From an uncultured Candidatus Melainabacteria bacterium (GTDB lineage Bacteria; Cyanobacteriota; Vampirovibrionia; Gastranaerophilales; Gastranaerophilaceae): a DNA stretch of 34,561 bases. The position numbers were made by a program, and so were the translations under genes. The stretch is from assembly GCA_949927415.1 (NCBI GenBank), contig CATLFB010000008.1, positions 1 through 34,561 of the forward strand. Direction: 5' to 3'. Positions 5,802 to 31,778 of this stretch are shown here, in pieces (the first letter of the stretch is position 1; every line of letters starts with the position of its first letter). The notes below the pieces were generated by a model that searched no databases, was not told the origin of the DNA, and was given only the letters and a program-made list of their open reading frames with translations.

Positions 5802-6860
5802 TTAACTCCCCTTTGTTATTTCTTCAACAAATACATTTAATGAGTCATCGCAACAATAATCATAGTTGACTTTGTTTTGACCAAATATGTAATCATACCG
5901 TTCCTTGATACAATTTTTAGCTTCTTTGGTGTTTATGGCAAATATTTTGCGTACCTTGTTATCGTGACTGAAAGCTGAATTAAATAAGAATTTGACAGAT
6001 ATATCAGTAAGAGGAAATGAAAAACCAACAATGTATACTTCATCTGCTTCTACTAGATTTTTATAAGCATCAGCCCAAATACTTTTGATAATATTATGAT
6101 TATAGTAATGTGTTTTATCTAATACTGGGGGAATGATGTATTCAGTTAAGTCCTTTCTTGAAATAGCCTCTTGTCTTTCTTGCTTTAATCTTTTATCTTC
6201 ATCTTCTTTTGAAACAGAAGATTTACAATATATAGGGTCGGATGGATTTGTTGCAGACCATAGCCAATTAATAGAACCGTGTAATTTGTGAATAGTTGGT
6301 AAATCACTTGGAGTTGCATCTCCGTATGTAAAACTACTTAGAGAAGTCTTTGGTAGTCTTGAATTTAAGTCATAAATTACTTGATTATAAAAATATCTGT
6401 ATTCAATATTATTGCTATTAGACTTATTTGATAGAAGGAATTTTTCCAGTAGTGTGTCATAGTTCAATGTTACTATGGGAATTTTGTTGTGCATAATAAA
6501 ACTTGAAAGTTTAGCATATTTAGTAAAATCATATTCACAATCCTTATCAAGTTTGTTAAAGTAATTTGCAATTTTACCAACAAGTTCAAAATACAAAGCC
6601 TTATCCAAGTGTTTCATTTGAGGATTTTGCCAAGGTAAGTCTGATAACAGATATGATAAAAGTTCCTCAATATCAGTCTTGTAATTGGGAGATATTTCAT
6701 CTAAGTGTCTATTAAGAGAACTCTTGCTAAAATTATTTAAAATTTGATTTGTTAGTGTTTTTAATGATGGGTATTTTACATCATTTGTAACACATTTCTC
6801 AGCAAGTGCCATTGAAAACCCAGCACCAAGAAAGAATACTCTATTTACTTTATCATTCAT
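5802..6860 (-). CDS. SIR2-like domain protein (putative antiphage NADase)
   Basis: 352 aa. Hallmarks of the SIR2-like fold are FFLGAGFSMALA (7-20, the NAD-binding GAGxS loop), VTLNYD with Asn133, KLHGSINWLW with His194 (expected catalytic pair) and IVGFSFPLTD (277-286). Zinc-binding cysteines of true deacetylases are absent, as in the NAD-degrading SIR2 proteins of antiphage systems such as Thoeris, DSR, Avs and SIR2-HerA. There is no obvious extra effector or sensor domain. It starts 22 nt after hsdR and overlaps nothing, with AAAGGG upstream. NAD depletion on infection is inferred from family knowledge. Confidence 0.88.
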   Translation of the reverse strand: MNDKVNRVFFLGAGFSMALAEKCVTNDVKYPSLKTLTNQILNNFSKSSLNRHLDEISPNYKTDIEELLSYLLSDLPWQNPQMKHLDKALYFELVGKIANYFNKLDKDCEYDFTKYAKLSSFIMHNKIPIVTLNYDTLLEKFLLSNKSNSNNIEYRYFYNQVIYDLNSRLPKTSLSSFTYGDATPSDLPTIHKLHGSINWLWSATNPSDPIYCKSSVSKEDEDKRLKQERQEAISRKDLTEYIIPPVLDKTHYYNHNIIKSIWADAYKNLVEADEVYIVGFSFPLTDISVKFLFNSAFSHDNKVRKIFAINTKEAKNCIKERYDYIFGQNKVNYDYCCDDSLNVFVEEITKGS

Positions 6861-6882
6861 TCAATAATCCCTTTTATAGAAA

Positions 6883-9800
6883 CTACAACCCCAAATACTT
6901 TTCAAAGAACTTTGACAACTTCTCTATGATTGTTTGCTTCTTTGCTTGCCTTTTCTTACCTGCATCCCCAAACAATCCCATTGGTGGAAGAAGTTTATCT
7001 AAGTCAGTTCCTGATGTTTTGATATCACCATCTCTAAAGGAATTATCAATGAACTTCTTTGTTTCTTCTGGTTTAAGTTTTTCATCATCAATGATTTGTT
7101 TTAGGTCAGCTTCCTTTTGTTTCACAATAAACTTCTTCCAATCATCGTCAACCCGAGTTGAGGCATTGATTGTAGCGATGAAGTTTTCGATAAGTTCTTT
7201 CTTGCTTCTGAGCTGAGGAGATGAACATATCGCCCTGTTAATATCTGCAAGGATTTCTTTATCAGCACAATTTGTTTTATGATACTTAATTACAAGCAAT
7301 AAGATATAGTCAATATTAACCTCGACTTGTCTTATAAGCTCCATTTCAAATTCAATATCATTGTTGATATTTTCTTTATCGGCCTTATCCTTGCCTCTCA
7401 ACTCTTGATATAAGTCAACATATTTACTTTGATAATCTTGAAGGTCTCTTTCAGTTATTGCTTTATCTTGCACAAAATCATCAAAAGCACTCAAGATATT
7501 TCTAATGCGTAGAATTGCTCCATAAAGTTTGATAAATTCTTTTTGGTTCTCTTCACCTTGTATCGTTTCGCAAATAGGAAAATTCTCCTTAAGTTGTGCG
7601 ATAAGTTCTTCATACCCGGCATGATGTCCTTTTTCATCATCGTAACCGTAGTAATAATCCTCATAGTTCTTCAATAAGACAATTCCACTGGCTTCTTTGT
7701 CTCCAAAAAGGGCAATAGCTTCTTCTGTTGCAGTCTGCAAGTCTCTAAAACAAACAACATTGCCGTATGTTTTAACTGAATTTAAAATTCGATTTGTTCT
7801 TGAAAATGCTTGTATAAGTCCGTGGTACTTAAGATTCTTATCCACCCAAAGAGTATTCAAAGTTGTAGCATCGAACCCGGTTAGGAACATATTGACAACA
7901 ATCAACAAGTCCAATTCTCTGTTCTTCATCCTAAGAGAAACATCCTTGTAATAGTTTTGGAACTTATCGGATGATGTATCATAGTTTGTGGCAAACATTT
8001 CGTTATAATCCTTGATTGCCATATCTAAGAAGTCTCTTGAAGACTGGTCAAGACCTGAGGTATCTTCCGGGTTTTCTTCTTCCAAGATATCGTAGTCAAC
8101 ATCTTCATTAACCCCAAAACTATAGATTATACCAACTCTTAAAGCCTGTTCAGGTTTTTCTTGCATCTGCTTTTTAAATTCGTTATAGTATGCTTTTGCA
8201 GTATCTATTGAAGCAACTGCAAACATAGAGTTAAAACCTGTAAGTCTGGTCTTCTGCTTAATCTCTTCAACAGTTCCTCTAATTTTTGCTGAAGCTACTT
8301 CTTCTATGTTTTGAAGTTGACTGAATGAATATGCTTGCTCATTCCTTTTTGTCTTTTGATTAAAGTGTTCAAGGATATAACTTACAATATTACTTATTCT
8401 TTGAGGTGAAGCCATAGCTTTTTCAATGTCTATTGCTCTGACTTGCGAGTCTTTAACTCCTTCTTTTTCTTTGACAGTATTTACATAGTCAATTCTGAAC
8501 GGAAGAACATTACCGTCATTGATTGCATCCACGATTGTATAAGTGTGTAGCTTTTCACCAAAGGCTTGAGGTGTAGTTTTAAGATTTATATTTCCACCAC
8601 TACTAGAGTTTACTGAAAATATCGGAGTCCCGGTAAAACCAAATATATGATAGTTTTTAAAGCTCTTTGTAATTGATGTGTGCATTTCACCAAATTGGGA
8701 ACGATGGCATTCATCAAAAATTATTACAACACGCTTTTTGAATACCTCATGACCTTTGTTCTTGGATATAAATACTCCGAGTTTCTGGATTGTAGTAATA
8801 ATTATTCTTGAATCGTCTGATTCTAACTGCTTTTGAAGAATGCTTGTTGAAGTGTTCGAATTCGCTGCACCTTTTTCAAACCTGTCATATTCTTTCATTG
8901 TCTGATAGTCTAAGTCTTTACGGTCTACAACAAACAACACTTTATCAATGTATGGTAAATTCGTAGCAAGTTGAGCTGTTTTGAATGATGTTAGGGTTTT
9001 CCCTGAACCTGTTGTGTGCCAAATATAGCCACCACCTTCAACCGAACCATACTTTTTGTAGTTGTGTGCAACTTCAATCCTGTTTATAATTCGCTCACAT
9101 GCAGAGATTTGATAAGGCCTCATTACAAGCAAAATATCTTCTGATGTGAACACGCAATATTTTGTTAGGATGTTAAGCAAGCTGTGTTTTGCAAAGAATG
9201 TCTTTGTAAAGTCAACAAGGTCTGTAATAATCTTGTTATTACCATCTGCCCAGAAAGAAGTAAATTCAAAACTATTACTTGTTTTCTTGCTCTTTCTGTT
9301 TTTGTTTGAGGTTTCTTTTATGTGACTGTCTCTTGTTGTATTTGAATAATACTTAGTGTTTGTACCGTTAGAAATAACAAATATTTGTATGTATTCATAA
9401 AGTCCACACGATGCCCAGAAGCTATCTCGTTTGTATCGCTCAATTTGATTGAAGGCTTCTCTTATTGGTACACCCCTGCGTTTAAGTTCAACATGAACTA
9501 TTGGAAGACCGTTCACAAGTATTGTTACATCATATCTTGTATCATGTTTGCCTTCTGTTTCTTCATACTGGTTGATAACTTGAAGCCTGTTGTTGTGAAT
9601 ATTTGATTTATCAATTAGCTTGACATTTCTTGTTGTGCCATCATCCAGTTTAAGAGCATAGACATGGTCTGTTTGAATTTTCCTTGTCTTGTCAATGAAG
9701 GTTTCATTGTTACTTGCAATGTAGTTACTAAAAAGTCTGTCCCATTCACTATCCAAAAAGGAGAAATTGTTTAGTCGTTCAAGTTGTAATCTCAAATTAC

Positions 9801-9987
9801 TGATTAAGTCTTTCTCGTTATTAATATGCAAATATTCATAACCTAAAGTTGTGAGTAATCGGATAAACTCTTGTTCAAGTTCTGCTTCCGATTGGTAATT
9901 ATCTGCTCTTTTAGAATCTGGTGTGTATTCAGATACTACCGTGCTTTGATTCATGCTGGCTATGATATTATATGTACTGTTGTTCAT
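6883..9987 (-). CDS. hsdR: Type I restriction enzyme, motor/nuclease subunit HsdR
   Basis: 1034 aa, normal for the family. The N-terminal nuclease domain has the PD-(D/E)xK residues Asp153, Glu167 and Lys169 (HVELKRRG). Superfamily 2 translocase motifs follow: Walker A TTGSGKT (325-331), DECH (425-428), TGTP (452-455) and QAFSRTNRI. A helical C-terminal region ends the protein and would contact the methylase. It cuts DNA after translocation when the target is unmethylated. The start overlaps the hsdS stop as ATGA, so translation is coupled. No frameshift or missing motif was found. Confidence 0.97.
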   Translation of the reverse strand: MNNSTYNIIASMNQSTVVSEYTPDSKRADNYQSEAELEQEFIRLLTTLGYEYLHINNEKDLISNLRLQLERLNNFSFLDSEWDRLFSNYIASNNETFIDKTRKIQTDHVYALKLDDGTTRNVKLIDKSNIHNNRLQVINQYEETEGKHDTRYDVTILVNGLPIVHVELKRRGVPIREAFNQIERYKRDSFWASCGLYEYIQIFVISNGTNTKYYSNTTRDSHIKETSNKNRKSKKTSNSFEFTSFWADGNNKIITDLVDFTKTFFAKHSLLNILTKYCVFTSEDILLVMRPYQISACERIINRIEVAHNYKKYGSVEGGGYIWHTTGSGKTLTSFKTAQLATNLPYIDKVLFVVDRKDLDYQTMKEYDRFEKGAANSNTSTSILQKQLESDDSRIIITTIQKLGVFISKNKGHEVFKKRVVIIFDECHRSQFGEMHTSITKSFKNYHIFGFTGTPIFSVNSSSGGNINLKTTPQAFGEKLHTYTIVDAINDGNVLPFRIDYVNTVKEKEGVKDSQVRAIDIEKAMASPQRISNIVSYILEHFNQKTKRNEQAYSFSQLQNIEEVASAKIRGTVEEIKQKTRLTGFNSMFAVASIDTAKAYYNEFKKQMQEKPEQALRVGIIYSFGVNEDVDYDILEEENPEDTSGLDQSSRDFLDMAIKDYNEMFATNYDTSSDKFQNYYKDVSLRMKNRELDLLIVVNMFLTGFDATTLNTLWVDKNLKYHGLIQAFSRTNRILNSVKTYGNVVCFRDLQTATEEAIALFGDKEASGIVLLKNYEDYYYGYDDEKGHHAGYEELIAQLKENFPICETIQGEENQKEFIKLYGAILRIRNILSAFDDFVQDKAITERDLQDYQSKYVDLYQELRGKDKADKENINNDIEFEMELIRQVEVNIDYILLLVIKYHKTNCADKEILADINRAICSSPQLRSKKELIENFIATINASTRVDDDWKKFIVKQKEADLKQIIDDEKLKPEETKKFIDNSFRDGDIKTSGTDLDKLLPPMGLFGDAGKKRQAKKQTIIEKLSKFFEKYLGL

Positions 9988-11093
9988 GATGCAACTTTCT
10001 CCTTGAATGTTAATAGTTTATCACGATAATACTCATATTGCTTCTTTCGAGCTTCAATTTCAGCAGGAAGACCAACTGTAATATCATTACACAAAGCATC
10101 AAACCTATCTAAAATTGAGACTATGCGTTCTTGCTCTGCAATCTTAGGAACTGGTATCATAACTTTGTTTAACACTGCTTGTGTAAGACTTGGAACACCA
10201 CCTGCTGTATTTAATTGTTCTAAATGTTCTTTTTGTAAGTAATAATAGACATACTTAGGTTCAACTTGCGAGATGTCTATATCTGTATAGAATATTGTAT
10301 CAACAGTCCAAAATGGAACATCTACATAGTATAATTTATCAATAGAACCTTTGCGGGGAATAAGAACAGAAGGTTTATTGAAAGCAAATGTATCAACATA
10401 GCACATGATACCACCAGTCCCATATACAGGAATATTGCCCTTGCCTAACGATTTATAGTCTTTTCCATTTTTAATTGTCAATACATCTTTAAGAGTTTTC
10501 CACTCAACACTTTTATCATTTTCATCAAAGGCCAGGAGTGTATCTCGATAATACTCATACTGTTTCTTTCTGGCTGTAAGCTCTGCTGTAAGCTCTGCTG
10601 TAAGCTCTGCTGTAAGCTCTGTGAAATTGTCCAGAATCCGAACAATTTCCTCCTGTACTTCGATTGGAGGTATTGGGACTTTTAATCTCTCAACCACTGC
10701 ATTATCAAGTGTTGGTATTCCTGCAACTCTAACCCTTGATTTTAGATAACTTTCTTGGCACAAAATAGCATAATACATATATCTGTTAATAAACTGATTT
10801 GAGTGTTCTATGCAAAAACAACCGTCAGAAGACCAGAAATCAACTGGACTGTAACCAACTGTACCAGCAGATGCACCAACATTTATAACCATTACAGTAT
10901 CGGCATTCCTATTCTTTTCATTATAGAATCCTAAAGGTTCTAGTCCCCCATGATATACTGGGAATCGTTCTTCTGGAAATAACTGATTTTTAGTTAGCCT
11001 TTTTCCCCTTAGAATAGATGTCATACTTCTTATTTCTTTATATTCCACCCCATTAGGACAGAGTTCTTGTATTAATTTATCCAGTTTAGTCAT
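9984..11093 (-). CDS. hsdS: Type I restriction specificity subunit HsdS
   Basis: 369 aa from ATG 11093, chosen for the family-typical start MTKLDKLIQELCPNGVEYK and the GAGGTG 5 nt upstream. Two target-recognition domains (about 20-145 and 195-330) are each followed by a conserved helical region; both repeats contain RKKQYEYYRD. The central spacer holds four ELTA repeats (159-174), encoded by four perfect 12-bp units. In EcoR124-type enzymes, changing the number of TAEL repeats alters the gap in the recognised sequence. Overlaps the cyclase-like gene by 8 bp and hsdR by 4 bp. Confidence 0.96.
   Translation of the reverse strand: MTKLDKLIQELCPNGVEYKEIRSMTSILRGKRLTKNQLFPEERFPVYHGGLEPLGFYNEKNRNADTVMVINVGASAGTVGYSPVDFWSSDGCFCIEHSNQFINRYMYYAILCQESYLKSRVRVAGIPTLDNAVVERLKVPIPPIEVQEEIVRILDNFTELTAELTAELTAELTARKKQYEYYRDTLLAFDENDKSVEWKTLKDVLTIKNGKDYKSLGKGNIPVYGTGGIMCYVDTFAFNKPSVLIPRKGSIDKLYYVDVPFWTVDTIFYTDIDISQVEPKYVYYYLQKEHLEQLNTAGGVPSLTQAVLNKVMIPVPKIAEQERIVSILDRFDALCNDITVGLPAEIEARKKQYEYYRDKLLTFKEKVAS
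10573..10620 (-). repeat. Four perfect 12-bp repeats in hsdS
   Basis: GCTGTAAGCTCT (plus strand) occurs four times without a mismatch, encoding ELTA x4 in the spacer between recognition domains. Slippage by whole units keeps the frame while changing domain spacing and thus DNA specificity. Confidence 0.95.
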
Positions 11094-11889
11094 TAGACAC
11101 CTCATTACATAAATTACTTTCTTCTTCTGGTGTTTTATTTATATCGAGCAATGAAATAGGTTCATGCTCGGGTTCATCATTGCATGTTTGTGAGCAGTAG
11201 AAATGATTGAAATAATTAACAAGCCAGTTTAGTTTTTGTTTAGCTTTTCTGTTATTAGAATTTATCTGCAAGAGCTCAAGTATATTAGTTTTATATTTTT
11301 CATAACTTCCAAAACCATTGATAAAAAAGCTATTCAAATACCATTCCCCATCGTTATCACGCATAATATACTGTGGAATCAAATGAATTAACTCTTCTTG
11401 AACAACAATTCTTGGATAGATAGCAATCTTTTCTTCAAGTTTAACAGCTTCAACAAGTGCTTTTCCAAATACAAATGTATTATTCTTGTAGAATTTGCCC
11501 TCTGTTATTCCACCTCTCATTAAGTAGCCATAATCCAATGCGTTGCAATATATATTTCCAGCAAGCTCAAATATTTTCTTAATCTTCTCAGCTCTGCCAG
11601 TATCATGTTGGCTTGTTTTAACAGCTATCAGAATATTATCAGAAAATATTTTGATATCTATTTTCTTTCTTGATACAACATTTGTAAACATAACATCATC
11701 TAATGCTTTTTCATAGATGGCATTCAGATTGTTTAAGAATTGCTCGCTATCATCTTCCATGTATTTAGTAGCACCCAATACATCCAAGTATGCAACTACA
11801 TAATTGTATGAATTCAACCGAGCAAGCCTTTTAGCAAAATCGTCTTTTGGAGTTAATGTCTGTTTTTTTGAAGATTCATCTTTTGCCAT
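11086..11889 (-). CDS. Class III nucleotidyl-cyclase-like protein
   Basis: 267 aa. The order of motifs follows class III cyclases: YLDVLGATKY (34-43, like FxDIxGFT, Asp36), KIFSDNILIAV (80-90, like KxxGDxxxAV, Asp84), LMRGGITEG (123-131, like RxGIHxG) and VFGKALVEAVKLEEK (140-154, like the VNxAxRLE helix). Both metal-binding Asp residues are present. The usual Asn and Arg of the last motif are Val146 and Lys150, so catalysis is not assured. No membrane or sensor domain; it would be a soluble single-domain enzyme like Pycsar cyclases. Overlaps the HEPN-like gene by 14 bp and hsdS by 8 bp. Signal production is inference. Confidence 0.65.
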   Translation of the reverse strand: MAKDESSKKQTLTPKDDFAKRLARLNSYNYVVAYLDVLGATKYMEDDSEQFLNNLNAIYEKALDDVMFTNVVSRKKIDIKIFSDNILIAVKTSQHDTGRAEKIKKIFELAGNIYCNALDYGYLMRGGITEGKFYKNNTFVFGKALVEAVKLEEKIAIYPRIVVQEELIHLIPQYIMRDNDGEWYLNSFFINGFGSYEKYKTNILELLQINSNNRKAKQKLNWLVNYFNHFYCSQTCNDEPEHEPISLLDINKTPEEESNLCNEVSND

Positions 11890-12394
11890 TGCAAGCCTCC
11901 AAATCTTTCAATAGGTTGTTATGAAATTCTATTTGCTTTTGAATTACTTCCTTATGCAGGGATAACAACTTATCTCTGGTTTTATCCAGCTCTAGCCTAT
12001 TGCAAAAGCCTTTGTCATCTAATGCATCATGTATTTTTCTGTGACATGAAGCTCTATCATCCAACAAAAGGTCTCCTTTGTCTGTCAAAGCGACAAACGA
12101 ATGACACAAAGCATTTCTCAAGCCATCCAATGTCATTTCTGACAAACTGCCATCTTTGTTCATAACCTTAGTAAACAAAGCATCTAATTTTAACTGAGGA
12201 ATGTTGTATTTTTCACTAGGAATATCAAGTTGAGACTTAGTTATATATGGAATAAGCAAATACATTGCAAGAAGTTCTCTGACACCTTTAACATCAAGGG
12301 GATTATAGCCAACAAGAAGACTGACAGCAATATCTGCCATAGTAATTGCGTGGTTATTATAACTTGTTATGTTTTCTAATTCTTCTTTTAACAT
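11876..12394 (-). CDS. HEPN-like protein (putative RNase)
   Basis: 172 aa, all helical. The motif LRNALCHSF (92-100) gives Arg93 and His98, the Rx4H signature of HEPN-domain RNases, and the surrounding pattern resembles the family of the pEK499 p136 protein. HEPN proteins often act as toxins or effectors in toxin-antitoxin, CRISPR and abortive infection systems. It lies between the RhuM-Fic gene (overlap 7 bp) and the cyclase-like gene (overlap 14 bp), so it is a tightly coupled part of the restriction operon. Assignment rests on the motif and helix content. Confidence 0.6.
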   Translation of the reverse strand: MLKEELENITSYNNHAITMADIAVSLLVGYNPLDVKGVRELLAMYLLIPYITKSQLDIPSEKYNIPQLKLDALFTKVMNKDGSLSEMTLDGLRNALCHSFVALTDKGDLLLDDRASCHRKIHDALDDKGFCNRLELDKTRDKLLSLHKEVIQKQIEFHNNLLKDLEACNGKR

Positions 12395-13392
12395 TTGTTT
12401 ACTCCATTAAGAACACTTATAACAATCTGTTTCATTGTCTCCATCTCATTAGGATTGCTTTCGGCAATTAATACCGTTAGGGCAAACAATGTTGAGTTAT
12501 CAATGATTGGTCTACCTGTTTTGTACAGCATTCCATTCTTTTCCAAGAAATACAAGAAACAACTTGCCGCAATTCTTTTGTTGCCGTCTGAGAATGAATG
12601 ATTTTTGGTTATCAAATACAACAACATTGAAGCCTTTTCTTCTAATGTAGGATAAAGTTCTTCACCTCCAAAAGTTTGATAAATCTGATTAACAGAACTA
12701 TCAAAACTCTCGTCTTTAGGATTTCCAAACACATCAGAAGCAAATTCTGATTTCATCTCCTTAACCACTTGCAAGAATTCATCAGTTGGTATTCTTACAG
12801 CTTCTTTTTTTGTTGTGCCTTTATTATCAAGTGTTTTATGGTCAAAGTTATCAAGTAAATCCAATCCGTGTGCAAAGTTATTCAAAATCTTAACTACAAT
12901 TTGAGCTTCATCAAGGTCTTCAATCTGATTAGTCAGACTTCTTGTTAGCAAGTCAACACTTATCTTGAGTGCTTCAATACTCTCTTGTTGTTGCTTAATT
13001 TTCTTTTCGTTTATTGCATAACCTTTTGTAAGGTATTCTTTCAATACTGAGTTTGACCATTTTCTAAAATGAGTTGCTACTTTAGATGTAACACGATAAC
13101 CGACTGCTAATATCATATCAAGGTTATAATAAGTAATTTCTCTTGTAATTCTTCTGCTGCCTTCGTTTCGAACTTGTGCAATTTTTGCACAAGTTGAAGC
13201 TTCTTCAAGCTCTTCTTCTTTTATAATATTCTTTATATGCCTTGCGATTGAAGTTCTATTGGTTTGAAATAATTCTTCTAATTGTTTCTGCGTAAGCCAC
13301 ATTGTATCATCTTGCAATACAACATCAACCCTATGTTTACCACTAACATCAGTATAAATTACTATTTCACCTCTGCTTAAGTCTTTATTCAT
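12388..13392 (-). CDS. RhuM-like / Fic fusion protein
   Basis: 334 aa. The N-terminal half (1-150) is the RhuM type: WLTQKQLEELFQTNRTSIARHIKNI (an HTH-like segment), then ITYYNLDMILAVGYRV. A coiled-coil linker leads to a C-terminal Fic/Doc domain with HSFSDGNKR at 265-273. This motif lies between Fic (HPFxxGNGR, AMP transfer) and Doc (HxFxxANKR, phosphorylation), so the reaction cannot be named. Such proteins frequently sit between hsdM and hsdS. The start overlaps the hsdM stop (TAATG). A guard or toxin of the restriction system is a reasonable inference. Confidence 0.9.
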   Translation of the reverse strand: MNKDLSRGEIVIYTDVSGKHRVDVVLQDDTMWLTQKQLEELFQTNRTSIARHIKNIIKEEELEEASTCAKIAQVRNEGSRRITREITYYNLDMILAVGYRVTSKVATHFRKWSNSVLKEYLTKGYAINEKKIKQQQESIEALKISVDLLTRSLTNQIEDLDEAQIVVKILNNFAHGLDLLDNFDHKTLDNKGTTKKEAVRIPTDEFLQVVKEMKSEFASDVFGNPKDESFDSSVNQIYQTFGGEELYPTLEEKASMLLYLITKNHSFSDGNKRIAASCFLYFLEKNGMLYKTGRPIIDNSTLFALTVLIAESNPNEMETMKQIVISVLNGVNKC

Positions 13393-14963
13393 TAGCCTGC
13401 CTCAATTTCTGAGATAATTTTCTCAATCTCGATTCTTAAGGTATCTTCTCTTTTAACAATCCTTGCGATTTCTTTGTTTAATTCAACAATGTCAATAACT
13501 TCTCTTGTGTCTTCTTGTTCAACATAAGTGCTTACAGATAAATTATATTCCTGCTCTTGGATTTCAGAATTAGGAACAAGTCTTGAAATGTATTCCTTAT
13601 CTTTTCTCTGTGTATAAGTTTCAAGAATTGAATTGATGTTATCATCGGATAATTTATTGTTATTTGTAACCTTAACACATTCTTTTGTTGCATCAATGAA
13701 TAATGTTGAATTATCCGTCTTGGATTTCTTCAAGACCATGATACAAGTTGCAATGGATGTACCGAAGAACAGGTTATCTGGTAATTGAATTACGCAGTCA
13801 ACAAAGTTATTATCAATTAAGTATTTTCGAATCTTTTGCTCGGCACCACCTCTATACATTATACCGGGGAAGCAAACTATTGCCGCTGTTCCATTTGTTG
13901 CAAGCCAAGAAAGCGAGTGCATAATAAAAGCCATATCAGCTTTTGACTTAGGAGCAAGAACACCTGCTGGAGAAAAACGAGGGTCATTTATTAGTAATGG
14001 ATTGTCATCGCCTTCCCACTTGATTGAGTAAGGAGGATTAGAAACTATTGCTTCAAAAGGCTCTTCATCCCAATGTAATGAAGACGGATGCTTCAGAGTA
14101 TCTCCATGAGCAATATCAAATTTTTCATATCCTATATCATGCAAGAACATGTTAATTCTACACAAGTTGTAAGTGGTAATGTTTATTTCTTGACCAAAGA
14201 AACCGTTTCTAACATTTTCTTTGCCCAGAATTTTTGCAAATTTCAAAAGCAGAGAGCCAGAACCACAAGCAGGGTCATAGACTTTGTTTACTTCGGTTTT
14301 ACCTACTAATGTAATTTTGGTTAAAAGTTCAGAAACTTCTTGAGGTGTGTAATATTCTCCTCCAGATTTCCCTGCGTTTGATGCGTACATTCCCATTAAG
14401 TATTCATAAGCATCGCCAAAAGCATCAATGGTATTATCTTTATATGCTCCCAAATTCATGCTATCAACACCATTGAGTAATTTAACAAGCCTTTCGTTTC
14501 TTTCTTTGACTGTTGCTCCAAGTTTATTACTATTGACATCCAAATCATCAAATAAGCCTTTGAAATCATCTTCGCTTTCCGTTCCAAGAGCAGAGTTTTC
14601 AATATTACGGAAGATATTATCTAATGTAACATTAAGGTCTTCATCGTTCTTTGCTCTTTCTTTAACATTACAGAACAATTCAGAAGGTAAGACAAAAACA
14701 CCTTTTGTTCTAATCATTTCATCTCTCGCAACTTCTGCTTCTGCATCTGATAATTTTGCGTAATCAAAATTAGCTTCCCCGGCTTCTCTTTGAATTTCAT
14801 TGATATAGTTTGTTAAGTTCTCAGAAATGTATCTATAAAACAACATGCCCAAAACATATTGTTTGAAATCCCAACCATCAACACTTCCTCTTAAATCGTT
14901 TGCTATTCCCCAAATGGTGCGATGCAATTCTGCTCGCTCCTGCTCTTTCCTATTATCTACCAT
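13392..14963 (-). CDS. hsdM: Type I DNA methyltransferase subunit HsdM
   Basis: 523 aa, usual length. A helical N-terminal HsdM_N domain (1-140) precedes the N6-adenine methylase domain: GGEYYTPQEV (201-210), SAM-binding DPACGSGSLLL (230-240) and catalytic SNPPY (308-312). With HsdS it methylates the target adenine and protects host DNA. It is the first gene of an eight-gene minus-strand operon running to 5405. GGGAGAG lies about 12 nt upstream of the ATG, and a possible -10 (TATAAT, complement of 14993-14998) lies 30 bp upstream. Confidence 0.97.
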   Translation of the reverse strand: MVDNRKEQERAELHRTIWGIANDLRGSVDGWDFKQYVLGMLFYRYISENLTNYINEIQREAGEANFDYAKLSDAEAEVARDEMIRTKGVFVLPSELFCNVKERAKNDEDLNVTLDNIFRNIENSALGTESEDDFKGLFDDLDVNSNKLGATVKERNERLVKLLNGVDSMNLGAYKDNTIDAFGDAYEYLMGMYASNAGKSGGEYYTPQEVSELLTKITLVGKTEVNKVYDPACGSGSLLLKFAKILGKENVRNGFFGQEINITTYNLCRINMFLHDIGYEKFDIAHGDTLKHPSSLHWDEEPFEAIVSNPPYSIKWEGDDNPLLINDPRFSPAGVLAPKSKADMAFIMHSLSWLATNGTAAIVCFPGIMYRGGAEQKIRKYLIDNNFVDCVIQLPDNLFFGTSIATCIMVLKKSKTDNSTLFIDATKECVKVTNNNKLSDDNINSILETYTQRKDKEYISRLVPNSEIQEQEYNLSVSTYVEQEDTREVIDIVELNKEIARIVKREDTLRIEIEKIISEIEAG

Positions 14964-15212
14964 AAACTATCTACTCTCTCCCTTAAGTAATTATTATACA
15001 ACAAGATTTTCAATGTGTCTTTTTGTAAAGTTATACAAGCAAAAGAAGCCTTTTGTTGTGTGAGCTAAATTTCATCAATAAAACTGAATGCAAGGTTTTG
15101 TTTTATGTTGAAAAGCAATATTGCAAGAGTGTATAGAGGTTTTTTGAGTTGATGTAATAGTCATATATTATACTGTTGACTGCAAACACACAAAAATACA
15201 AGTGGATTTACA
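14964..15212 (-). promoter_or_regulatory. Upstream region of the restriction operon
   Basis: No gene seen. It holds a TATAAT (complement of 14993-14998) that may serve as the -10 of the hsdM promoter, without a good -35. It also holds a perfect palindrome GCAATATTGC at 15115-15124 and a second TATAAT on the minus strand near 15170. The operon promoter must lie here, because the second recombinase upstream ends in its own terminator. Confidence 0.45.
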
Positions 15213-15249
15213 AAACAAGAAAATGCCTCCGATAATCATTACCAGAGGC
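15213..15249 (-). terminator. Terminator of the second recombinase gene
   Basis: On the minus strand GCCTCTG pairs with CGGAGGC (15249-15225, one G-T pair) and is followed by a T-rich stretch. It lies 30 bp after the recombinase stop and separates it from the restriction operon. Confidence 0.65.
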
Positions 15250-15279
15250 GTTCCTGCATTCTAAGGAGCAACGCAATCT

Positions 15280-15828
15280 TTATAATTCAAATTGTCTCAA
15301 AGTCTGTTCAATTTCATCTTGAGTAATCCCGATGTACCTAAGAGTAATTGAAGAACTTGAATGGTTGAATAAGTGTTGAAGAATCGCTACATCTTTAAAG
15401 GTCTGGTAATGGTGGTAGCCAAAGGTTTTTCTTAGAGTATGTGTTCCTATGTTATCAGTAATTCCTGCTTTGCGACAAGCAACATTTATAATCTTATAGG
15501 CCATTACTCTGGTTATAGGCTTATTTGCACCGTTGCGACTTCTGAACAGGTATTCGTTATCAAGTTTTCCTTTGATGTATTCATCAATCATTGATTGAAG
15601 ATTACCAAGTAAAGGGAATCTTTTAACCTTCCCGGTTTTCTGTTCTTTAATCTCAACATGGGATTTTCCTTTAACATCTGCAATCTTTAGCTTTAGGAGG
15701 TCAGAAATCCTTAGACCTGTATTGATTCCCATAGTAAACAGGAGTAAATCACGGCTCCCATTTTGTTTTAAGTATGATTTTATTTCTTCAATCTTTTGCT
15801 TATCTCTGATTGGCTGAACATATTTCAT
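15280..15828 (-). CDS. Small XerC/D-like tyrosine recombinase
   Basis: 182 aa from ATG 15828, chosen for GAGGTG 4 nt upstream; an extension to 15900 has no ribosome site. It is essentially a stand-alone catalytic domain: Arg in TGLRISD, His-Thr-Leu-Arg (HTLRKTFG), His in NHSSSS and Tyr in RYIG. Length and sequence are like the short integrases common on plasmids and islands of gut bacteria. Related enzymes invert hsdS segments in some bacteria, but only one hsdS is present and no inverted copy was found. Resolution of island multimers or inversion of a 15-bp-flanked segment upstream are alternatives. Confidence 0.88.
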   Translation of the reverse strand: MKYVQPIRDKQKIEEIKSYLKQNGSRDLLLFTMGINTGLRISDLLKLKIADVKGKSHVEIKEQKTGKVKRFPLLGNLQSMIDEYIKGKLDNEYLFRSRNGANKPITRVMAYKIINVACRKAGITDNIGTHTLRKTFGYHHYQTFKDVAILQHLFNHSSSSITLRYIGITQDEIEQTLRQFEL

Positions 15829-15879
15829 TTTGCACCTCATTTTCTGCTGTTTAGTTAAGTTAAAATTACGCTCTTGAAT

Positions 15880-15976
15880 CATTTTGTTAAATTCAATCAT
15901 AGCTTCTTTATAAACTTTTGCCCATCATTCTTTAGTGGTCTATGTTTGAACTTGTTTTGTCGAATTTAACAAAATG
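15880..15976. repeat. Perfect 15-bp inverted repeats upstream of the small recombinase
   Basis: CATTTTGTTAAATTC at 15880-15894 and its exact complement at 15962-15976, with 67 bp between. A third direct copy occurs at 17458-17472. The pair brackets the likely promoter of the recombinase, so it may be an operator, a recombinase site or part of an origin. Confidence 0.7.
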
Positions 15977-16043
15977 TCTATTGTGTTAAATTGGTCCGGG
16001 GATTTTTCAATCTTTCCATGGAACTTTACCCCCTGTCGCACAA

Positions 16044-30739: not shown

Positions 30740-31693
30740 TTAAGGCAAACATTCCCAATAAGTTTTTCCGACCCCGTCCGGACACTCGTTTGCAAGAGCG
30801 TAATAAGAACATCCCAAACCGTTTCCTGCAGTATTGTATTTTACAGAACACGGGCGTTTATCAGTTTCGGCATATTCAGCATCAGGATTAGGCTCACCCT
30901 CCGATGGCTTTTGTCCGACAAGAGTATCCAGTACTTTATCTACTCTGAACATAAAAATATCATGCCCGAACGCATTCGGTCCCTTAACAGGTCCGTTTAC
31001 ATCAACGGTTATCGAAATAGTAGAGGACCAAATACAGACACAAAGCGAGGAACCGTCCGGCAAAACTTTGTTGGGAATACAGGTAATGCCATCCATAATC
31101 TTTCCGGATTTTTCAGAATAAGGAACTGTTTTCTTCCTTGTATAATTAAGAGGCAATTTTTCATAATCCCGGGTTTCTACAACTTTCACATGTTTGTAAT
31201 ACTCATTGATGAAAAGGTCCGAATTTACATATTCCTTTCCGTTGTAAGATGCAAAAGATTTATGGATATTATCGGCACCAAGTTCAAATTTTGTTGCAAG
31301 AAGCGCTTGAGCCGCATTACTGTAAGCTTTTTTGAAACGCGTTTCCAGAACTTTAGTATCGCGTCTGTGAATTATTGTCGGCAGAGTCATTGCGGCAACA
31401 ATTCCGATAATACCAAGTGTGATGAGAACTTCGGCCATGGTAAACGCTTTTACACATCTGCAGAGCGAAAATTTTTCCTGCAGAACACTTTTCGCCGTCA
31501 AAAAAGCTGAGCCGCAAGTTTTTGAACCCGTAAATCCGTGCGGAATGTTGAAGTTTTTCTGCGGACAAAGACTTTCAAACCATTTCTTTAAGATGTTTTG
31601 CGATAAATGTTCATTAATAAAATCAGAAAATATTTTTGACCAAAAGCCTTTAAGGAGCTGATTAGCGGACGCCCCCCCCCCCCTGAAACTCAA
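30740..31693 (-). CDS. Type IV pilin-like prepilin with long leader, poly-G at the 5' end
   Basis: Open frame of 317 aa if read from a TTG at 31693. The prepilin signal KAFTMAEVLITLGIIGIVAAMTLP begins at about residue 82; cleavage after Ala83 leaves Phe1 and Glu5 as in type IV pilins and pseudopilins. The 83-residue leader is far longer than usual. The best ribosome site (AGGAGC, 8 nt before ATG 31712) drives a frame that enters the 12-G tract and stops at once; it joins the pilin frame only with 11 or 14 G. The mature part has a C-terminal cluster of cysteines. The gene is likely phase-variable and off in this sequence. Confidence 0.85.
   Translation of the reverse strand: MSFRGGGASANQLLKGFWSKIFSDFINEHLSQNILKKWFESLCPQKNFNIPHGFTGSKTCGSAFLTAKSVLQEKFSLCRCVKAFTMAEVLITLGIIGIVAAMTLPTIIHRRDTKVLETRFKKAYSNAAQALLATKFELGADNIHKSFASYNGKEYVNSDLFINEYYKHVKVVETRDYEKLPLNYTRKKTVPYSEKSGKIMDGITCIPNKVLPDGSSLCVCIWSSTISITVDVNGPVKGPNAFGHDIFMFRVDKVLDTLVGQKPSEGEPNPDAEYAETDKRPCSVKYNTAGNGLGCSYYALANECPDGVGKTYWECLP
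31672..31683 (-). repeat. Homopolymer of 12 G (minus strand) in the prepilin start
   Basis: Twelve consecutive C on the plus strand, about 10 codons after ATG 31712. Such tracts change length by slippage. With 12, the ATG frame ends in GGGG-Val-Arg-stop. Confidence 0.9.
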
Positions 31694-31749
31694 TTATAGC
31701 TTGATTTTTCATAAAATTTAGCTCCTTTCATACAAGCCTTACCTAACTA

Positions 31750-31778
31750 ATTATAAATTATTTTCAACAAATTTTCAA
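31750..31778 (-). promoter_or_regulatory. Promoter of the prepilin gene
   Basis: On the minus strand: TTGAAA (31778-31773), 17-nt spacer, TATAAT (31755-31750). It overlaps the stop codon of the aminotransferase gene and lies about 38 bp upstream of ATG 31712, which supports that ATG as the intended start. Confidence 0.75.

Follow-up and report, generated by a model that had tools for sequence, protein, structure and literature searches.

A poly-G leader upstream of an out-of-frame prepilin gene in Gastranaerophilales, one of dozens per genome, and its possible role in phase variation held one step from ON

Background

The locus described here raises the question of why a prepilin gene should be separated from its promoter, ribosome binding site and start codon by a run of twelve G that leaves it out of frame, and whether this tract is the switch of a phase-variable gene, a site of recoding, part of an attenuator or an error. 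It is situated in the window, i.e. the whole stretch of 34,561 nucleotides that was analysed, which belongs to a Gastranaerophilales genome of 2.18 Mb in 22 contigs (G000).

Results

The leader and the prepilin frame

The elements of the locus, all on the minus strand, are listed in Table 1. An earlier note had placed a good promoter and a ribosome site in front of an ATG whose frame enters a 12-G tract and stops soon after, and this proved exact; the tract does lie between a strong promoter, Shine-Dalgarno (SD) sequence and ATG on one side and an out-of-frame prepilin on the other. The promoter overlaps the 3' end of the upstream aminotransferase gene (stop at 31775), and the leader (ATG 31712-31710) opens with MKNQAIIEFQ and reaches a TAA at 31664-31662, 16 codons in all. 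The same note expected 11 or 14 G to read into a prepilin of 317 aa; both lengths do join the two frames, but the 317 aa are those of a mechanical ORF from TTG 31693, whereas the leader-prepilin fusion with 14 G is 324 aa long. No internal start with an SD sequence was found when the spacer (31445-31671) was searched.

Table 1. Features of the poly-G leader locus in the window
Feature	Position	Strand	Basis
Promoter, σ70-type, TTGAAA-17-TATAAT	31750..31778	-	11/12 consensus matches; consensus match only
SD sequence AAGGAGCT, 5' arm of predicted SD/anti-SD stem	31720..31727	-	sequence, fold
Leader ORF in assembled frame, MKNQAIIEFQGGGGVR and stop	31662..31712	-	layout common to 42 G-type loci of the genome
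Poly-G tract, 12 G	31672..31683	-	read from sequence
Anti-SD AGCTCCTT, directly 3' of leader stop, 3' arm of stem	31652..31659	-	complementarity, fold
Spacer, open in prepilin frame (reached with 11 or 14 G)	31445..31671	-	frame reading
Prepilin, FTMAEVLITLG motif to stop	30740..31444	-	PF07963; predicted helix and strand-rich head

The product matches PF07963, the N-terminal methylation motif expected of a type IV-type prepilin (E 1.4e-4, score over the gathering threshold), with F1, T2 and E5 invariant among 40 homologues, and the mature prepilin is predicted to consist of a 50-odd-residue helix and a strand-rich head (mean pLDDT 79.8). A Foldseek comparison of the predicted structure with solved structures gave nothing usable. 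A prepilin peptidase is encoded in the window's genome and the prepilins presumably form pili.

Leader loci across the genome

All 64 tracts of at least 9 G in the window's genome were read in context, revealing the layout of SD, ATG, leader and poly-G at 42 loci. Some five more carry poly-C in the coding strand (L046, L062, L075, L077 and L083; e.g. MHREDSIITCPPPP), and are out of frame by the shift that the poly-G leaders show. This gives a total of ~47 leader loci, 37 of which are linked to a prepilin frame, while many of those lacking a linked frame end at contig ends. Among the 37 prepilin-linked loci 33 have the shift of the window (one G fewer or two more would be in frame), three the other shift and one is in frame, i.e. 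36/37 are out of frame, and the window locus is one of dozens sharing one out-of-frame register. A search for SD and ATG followed by at least 10 G gave many matches in this and related genomes and close to none in the reversed control, which shows that the layout is not due to chance.

The linking frames of the G-type loci contain no stop in 1,614 codons, compared with 83 and 149 stops in the other two frames; the loci were chosen for an open link, which itself favours zero, and even so the count cannot be chance. An internal SD and start between leader and prepilin is absent at 36 of the 37 loci, ruling out internal translation starts as the route to the prepilins of this genome, and together with the absence of stops this implies that the frames are read across the tract at some time. 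The number of TATAAT-like sites 5' of the leaders barely exceeds that in shuffles, even though they group around -50 to -35, and a promoter is therefore not claimed for the whole family. The exact leader pattern of the window's genus had no match among viral contigs, so no link to phage is proposed.

Register and tract length

When one genome per species was compared, 136 prepilin loci in nine species of the window's genus gave 112 with the shift of the window, 10 with the other and 14 in frame. The tract, whose comparison with relatives had been suggested earlier, thus recurs in the genus, mostly in the register seen in the window, and loci in the other OFF register are as few as those that are ON. 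In four species of the genus 98 of 119 leaders share the same register, and tract length is mostly 11, 12 or 13 G where the codon before takes up 0, 1 or 2 of these G, a fit reached in none of 20,000 shuffles of lengths among loci (P < 5e-5). Tract length follows the reading phase of the leader, so it is the register that is conserved and not the length. Where a base at the tract's end is substituted, the length changes but the register does not, which indicates that indels are removed or rare while substitutions are kept.

In G049, belonging to another genus, the default is 10 G and one G more is needed (22/26 loci). Every well-sampled genome of the fused layout has some prepilin loci in frame (ON), for instance 5/30 in G008, 3/19 in G001, 3/26 in G049 and 6/16 in G014. 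Near-identical paralogues with gap-free flanks can differ just in tract length and state, as in G001 where L183 (G11) is ON and L171 (G12) is OFF, and adjacent copies in G049 carry G10 and G12. A clean ON/OFF comparison of close orthologues was prevented by leaders and spacers that differ in some of them despite similar mature pilins. In one such pair, L352 (G006) and L139 (G008), the mature prepilins are 94 percent identical across species while leaders and spacers differ, which points to an exchange of leader cassettes without the pilin.

Pairing of the Shine-Dalgarno sequence

The SD of the window pairs over 8 bp with AGCTCCTT past the leader stop, and the stem is present in the minimum-energy fold, the total stability of which is not unusual (z -1.18). 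The partner, which contains AGCTCC just 3' of the leader stop, covaries with the SD over the loci of the window's genome (AGGAGC/GCTCCT, AGGAGA/TCTCCT and GAAAGG/CCTTTC). When own and swapped partners were compared, the own partner was better in 200/200 trials in G000, 199 in G001, 195 in G012 and 168 in G008, and the same partner swap revealed no locus-specific complementarity in G023, G049, G014, G022 and G016. The claim is therefore limited to the window's genus, where the anti-SD is predicted to pair with the leader's own SD.

A different arrangement is seen in G023, where most leaders are unfused and the prepilin has its own start ~150-170 nt downstream, so that frame fusion is not the whole story. 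Here a conserved CCUCCG covers the prepilin SD in 22 of 29 single folds, and a +1 shift extends the leader to the CCUCCG region, three loci being already in that frame. In G083, a relative of G023, a separate prepilin start was found at two loci. The layout of these two genomes suggests that the tract can also work through an attenuator. Between leader and prepilin start, ~75-100 nt past the tract, loci L204-L223 of G023 contain a conserved small hairpin, AGCCGTGCCAANAGACACGGTGATTT, which is possibly a terminator.

Distribution in the family

The SD-ATG-poly-G pattern was identified in 78 of 191 genomes and 21 of 41 genera of the family, with few matches in the reversed control, and in 1/23 genomes beyond the family. 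In GTDB the records matching the leader pattern of the window's genus are titled as Candidatus Gastranaerophilales MAGs. Leader sequences differ by genus (e.g. MQTMIEI, MKNLFRxVH, MKNLFTR, MKNxIVxI and MQKxxIxRIS), and other genera have different leaders, a different default register or the uncoupled attenuator-like layout.

On contig C27 of G009 a 13-G leader, MKPTNINTLEL-GGGG (L355 / L111), is in frame with a 386-aa membrane protein which is no prepilin but looks like an acyltransferase, and the poly-G device is thus not confined to prepilins. Long spacers between leader and pilin, with the recurring peptides HSELDSES, HPELDSGS and MLNLFQHL, were observed in G012 (L154-L243) and G022 (L097 and L277-L283); their motifs resemble dispersed palindromic repeats that have entered in frame.

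Other variable or defence loci in the window

The gene hsdS (type I specificity subunit, 9984-11105) carries four copies of a 12-bp repeat at 10573-10621, which encode ELTA/TAEL repeats situated between the two target-recognition halves. Repeats of this kind alter the specificity of EcoR124-type enzymes, and by analogy the hsdS repeat is likely a second variable locus in the window. The gene is part of a type I restriction cluster (hsdR, hsdS and hsdM, 5802-16000) together with a SIR2-domain protein; a PDC-S23-type candidate defence protein lies within the same region and a small tyrosine recombinase (15280-15900) adjoins the cluster. A search of 9900-16000 revealed no inverted copy of hsdS.

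Discussion

On balance these loci are probably a large prepilin repertoire that undergoes slipped-strand phase variation while being kept a single step short of ON. The tract of the window would then be the switch of one member of the family, a poly-G (in some members poly-C) run in a short translated leader whose length is altered by replication slippage. With 12 G, initiation at ATG 31712 would end after 16 codons and yield no prepilin, whereas 11 or 14 G would fuse the leader in frame to the prepilin, and the N-terminal extension of the fusion would be removed by the prepilin peptidase. Initiation may be lowered further by the SD/anti-SD stem. It speaks against this account that most leaders of G023 are unfused, and that MutL is present in the window's genome, so that hypermutability through its loss is ruled out.

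The earlier note had seen in the locus the classic design of a single phase-variable gene. The design stands in that tract length in frame sets ON or OFF, and that related copies differ in length and state, some paralogues only in these; the notion of a single gene does not, as one register prevails at 33 of 37 loci here and at 112 of 136 in the genus. The constancy of the register (98/119) excludes free slippage with a neutral register, and since plain stochastic switching of that kind does not predict the bias, a further factor is needed, be it selection against ON or programmed slippage. We suggest that being ON is costly and that selection halts the tract at the OFF length adjoining ON. 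Nearly all loci would then stand exactly one G from ON, with a minority ON, and such a cost would yield 11, 12 or 13 G according to phase, a rare further OFF class and few ON loci. For the other OFF register to be as rare as ON this account needs a special balance, of mutation bias together with selection against ON. As the consensus of a metagenome assembly is the majority allele, a state in which few prepilins are ON in each cell would look as seen here. That G- and C-tracts share one register is as expected of a process at the DNA level.

More tentatively, the out-of-frame register may itself be functional, dozens of prepilins per genome being expressed only through slippage on G or C homopolymers or through an SD/anti-SD attenuator governed by the leader frame, which would make the tract a family-wide metering device and not a plain ON/OFF switch. 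Programmed recoding, in which slippage by RNA polymerase or the ribosome is constant in size, full-length prepilin makes up a set fraction of the product and the out-of-frame register is the working state, is in our view less likely but a serious rival. It would explain a register that is conserved over four species irrespective of length, the rarity of the second OFF register and the intact frames 3' of the tract, a conserved out-of-frame register before an intact frame being what programmed slippage calls for. A fixed device is nevertheless hard to square with the in-frame copies found in most genomes, with default shifts that are not the same in all members (+1 in G049 but -1 in the window's genus) and with poly-C copies, which share the register although they are ill-suited to ribosomal -1 slippage on GGG codons.

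That the short leader is itself functional, as a product or as a regulatory uORF whose frame governs the opening of the SD/anti-SD structure (translation attenuation), with the tract acting as a heritable setting, we regard as unlikely. The locus-specific complementarity in the window's genus and the arrangement in G023, where the prepilin has its own start with CCUCCG over its SD and a +1 shift brings the leader there, point in this direction. Against it, the prepilins of the window's genome have no start of their own, so that the leader must be fused; the complementarity is not locus-specific in five other genomes, and the overall stability of the window stem is nothing out of the ordinary. 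Sequencing of homopolymers is prone to error, and Illumina reads are disturbed by G-tracts (PMC9187656), but a miscount, the main caveat raised at the outset, or decay into pseudogenes is very improbable, since a length-dependent error cannot follow upstream reading phase as these lengths do, which rules out a systematic tract-length error, and since independent assemblies of several species agree on one register, the linking frames are without stops and one-base ON/OFF differences occur inside a single assembly.

Among known systems the nearest described case is the pilus switch of Bifidobacterium breve, in which replication slippage in poly-G controls sortase-dependent pili (PMC9187656). There, as is proposed here, the length of a G-tract gives ON/OFF control of pilus genes in a gut bacterium, but B. 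breve has one or two sortase pilus clusters per genome whereas here about forty prepilin genes share leader layout and default register. Poly-G/C phasomes are reported for Campylobacter and Neisseria (PMC6321876, PMC5084427). They likewise comprise many G/C homopolymers inside the reading frames of surface genes, though these genes are many and unrelated, whereas the present ones form one family that shares a leader and keeps a single out-of-frame register. PilC of Neisseria, a surface gene with a poly-G/C tract, is comparable to the phasomes.

The Opa genes of Neisseria gonorrhoeae, ~11 copies (PMC3745409), form a further parallel. They too are a paralogue family in which each member has its switching repeat where the coding sequence begins. 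Their repeats are pentamers in the leader sequence and their copies fewer, in contrast to the mononucleotide tract, more numerous copies and uniform register of the prepilin loci. Programmed transcriptional slippage in bacteria, analysed for A and T runs (PMC1088944), also involves a homopolymer followed by an intact frame out of register. It differs from the present case, where some paralogues are in frame and the default shift runs in opposite directions in different genera. Translation attenuators of the erm type combine a short leader ORF with an anti-SD element, a likeness clearest in G023; the variable homopolymer in the leader, and a stem that in the window covers the leader's own SD, set the present loci apart.

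Type IV pilus genes have been reported in a termite melainabacterium (PMC5877343). A search of the open-access literature (subscription journals and preprints being outside its scope) gave no description of phase variation in the Gastranaerophilales lineage, one flagellin survey mentioning both; the earlier remark that no such description in this lineage was known agrees with that literature, and the novelty of a phase-variable prepilin repertoire is provisional.

If phase variation held OFF is the correct account, a widespread and mostly uncultured gut lineage, the Gastranaerophilales, would possess a phase-variable surface repertoire of very large size, drawn mainly from one gene family whose members share a default-OFF register. 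This would account for annotation that misses or truncates these prepilin genes, and the tracts would be a ready marker of population heterogeneity in metagenomes. It would also put in testable form the question of how dozens of switches stay off and yet remain one base from on.
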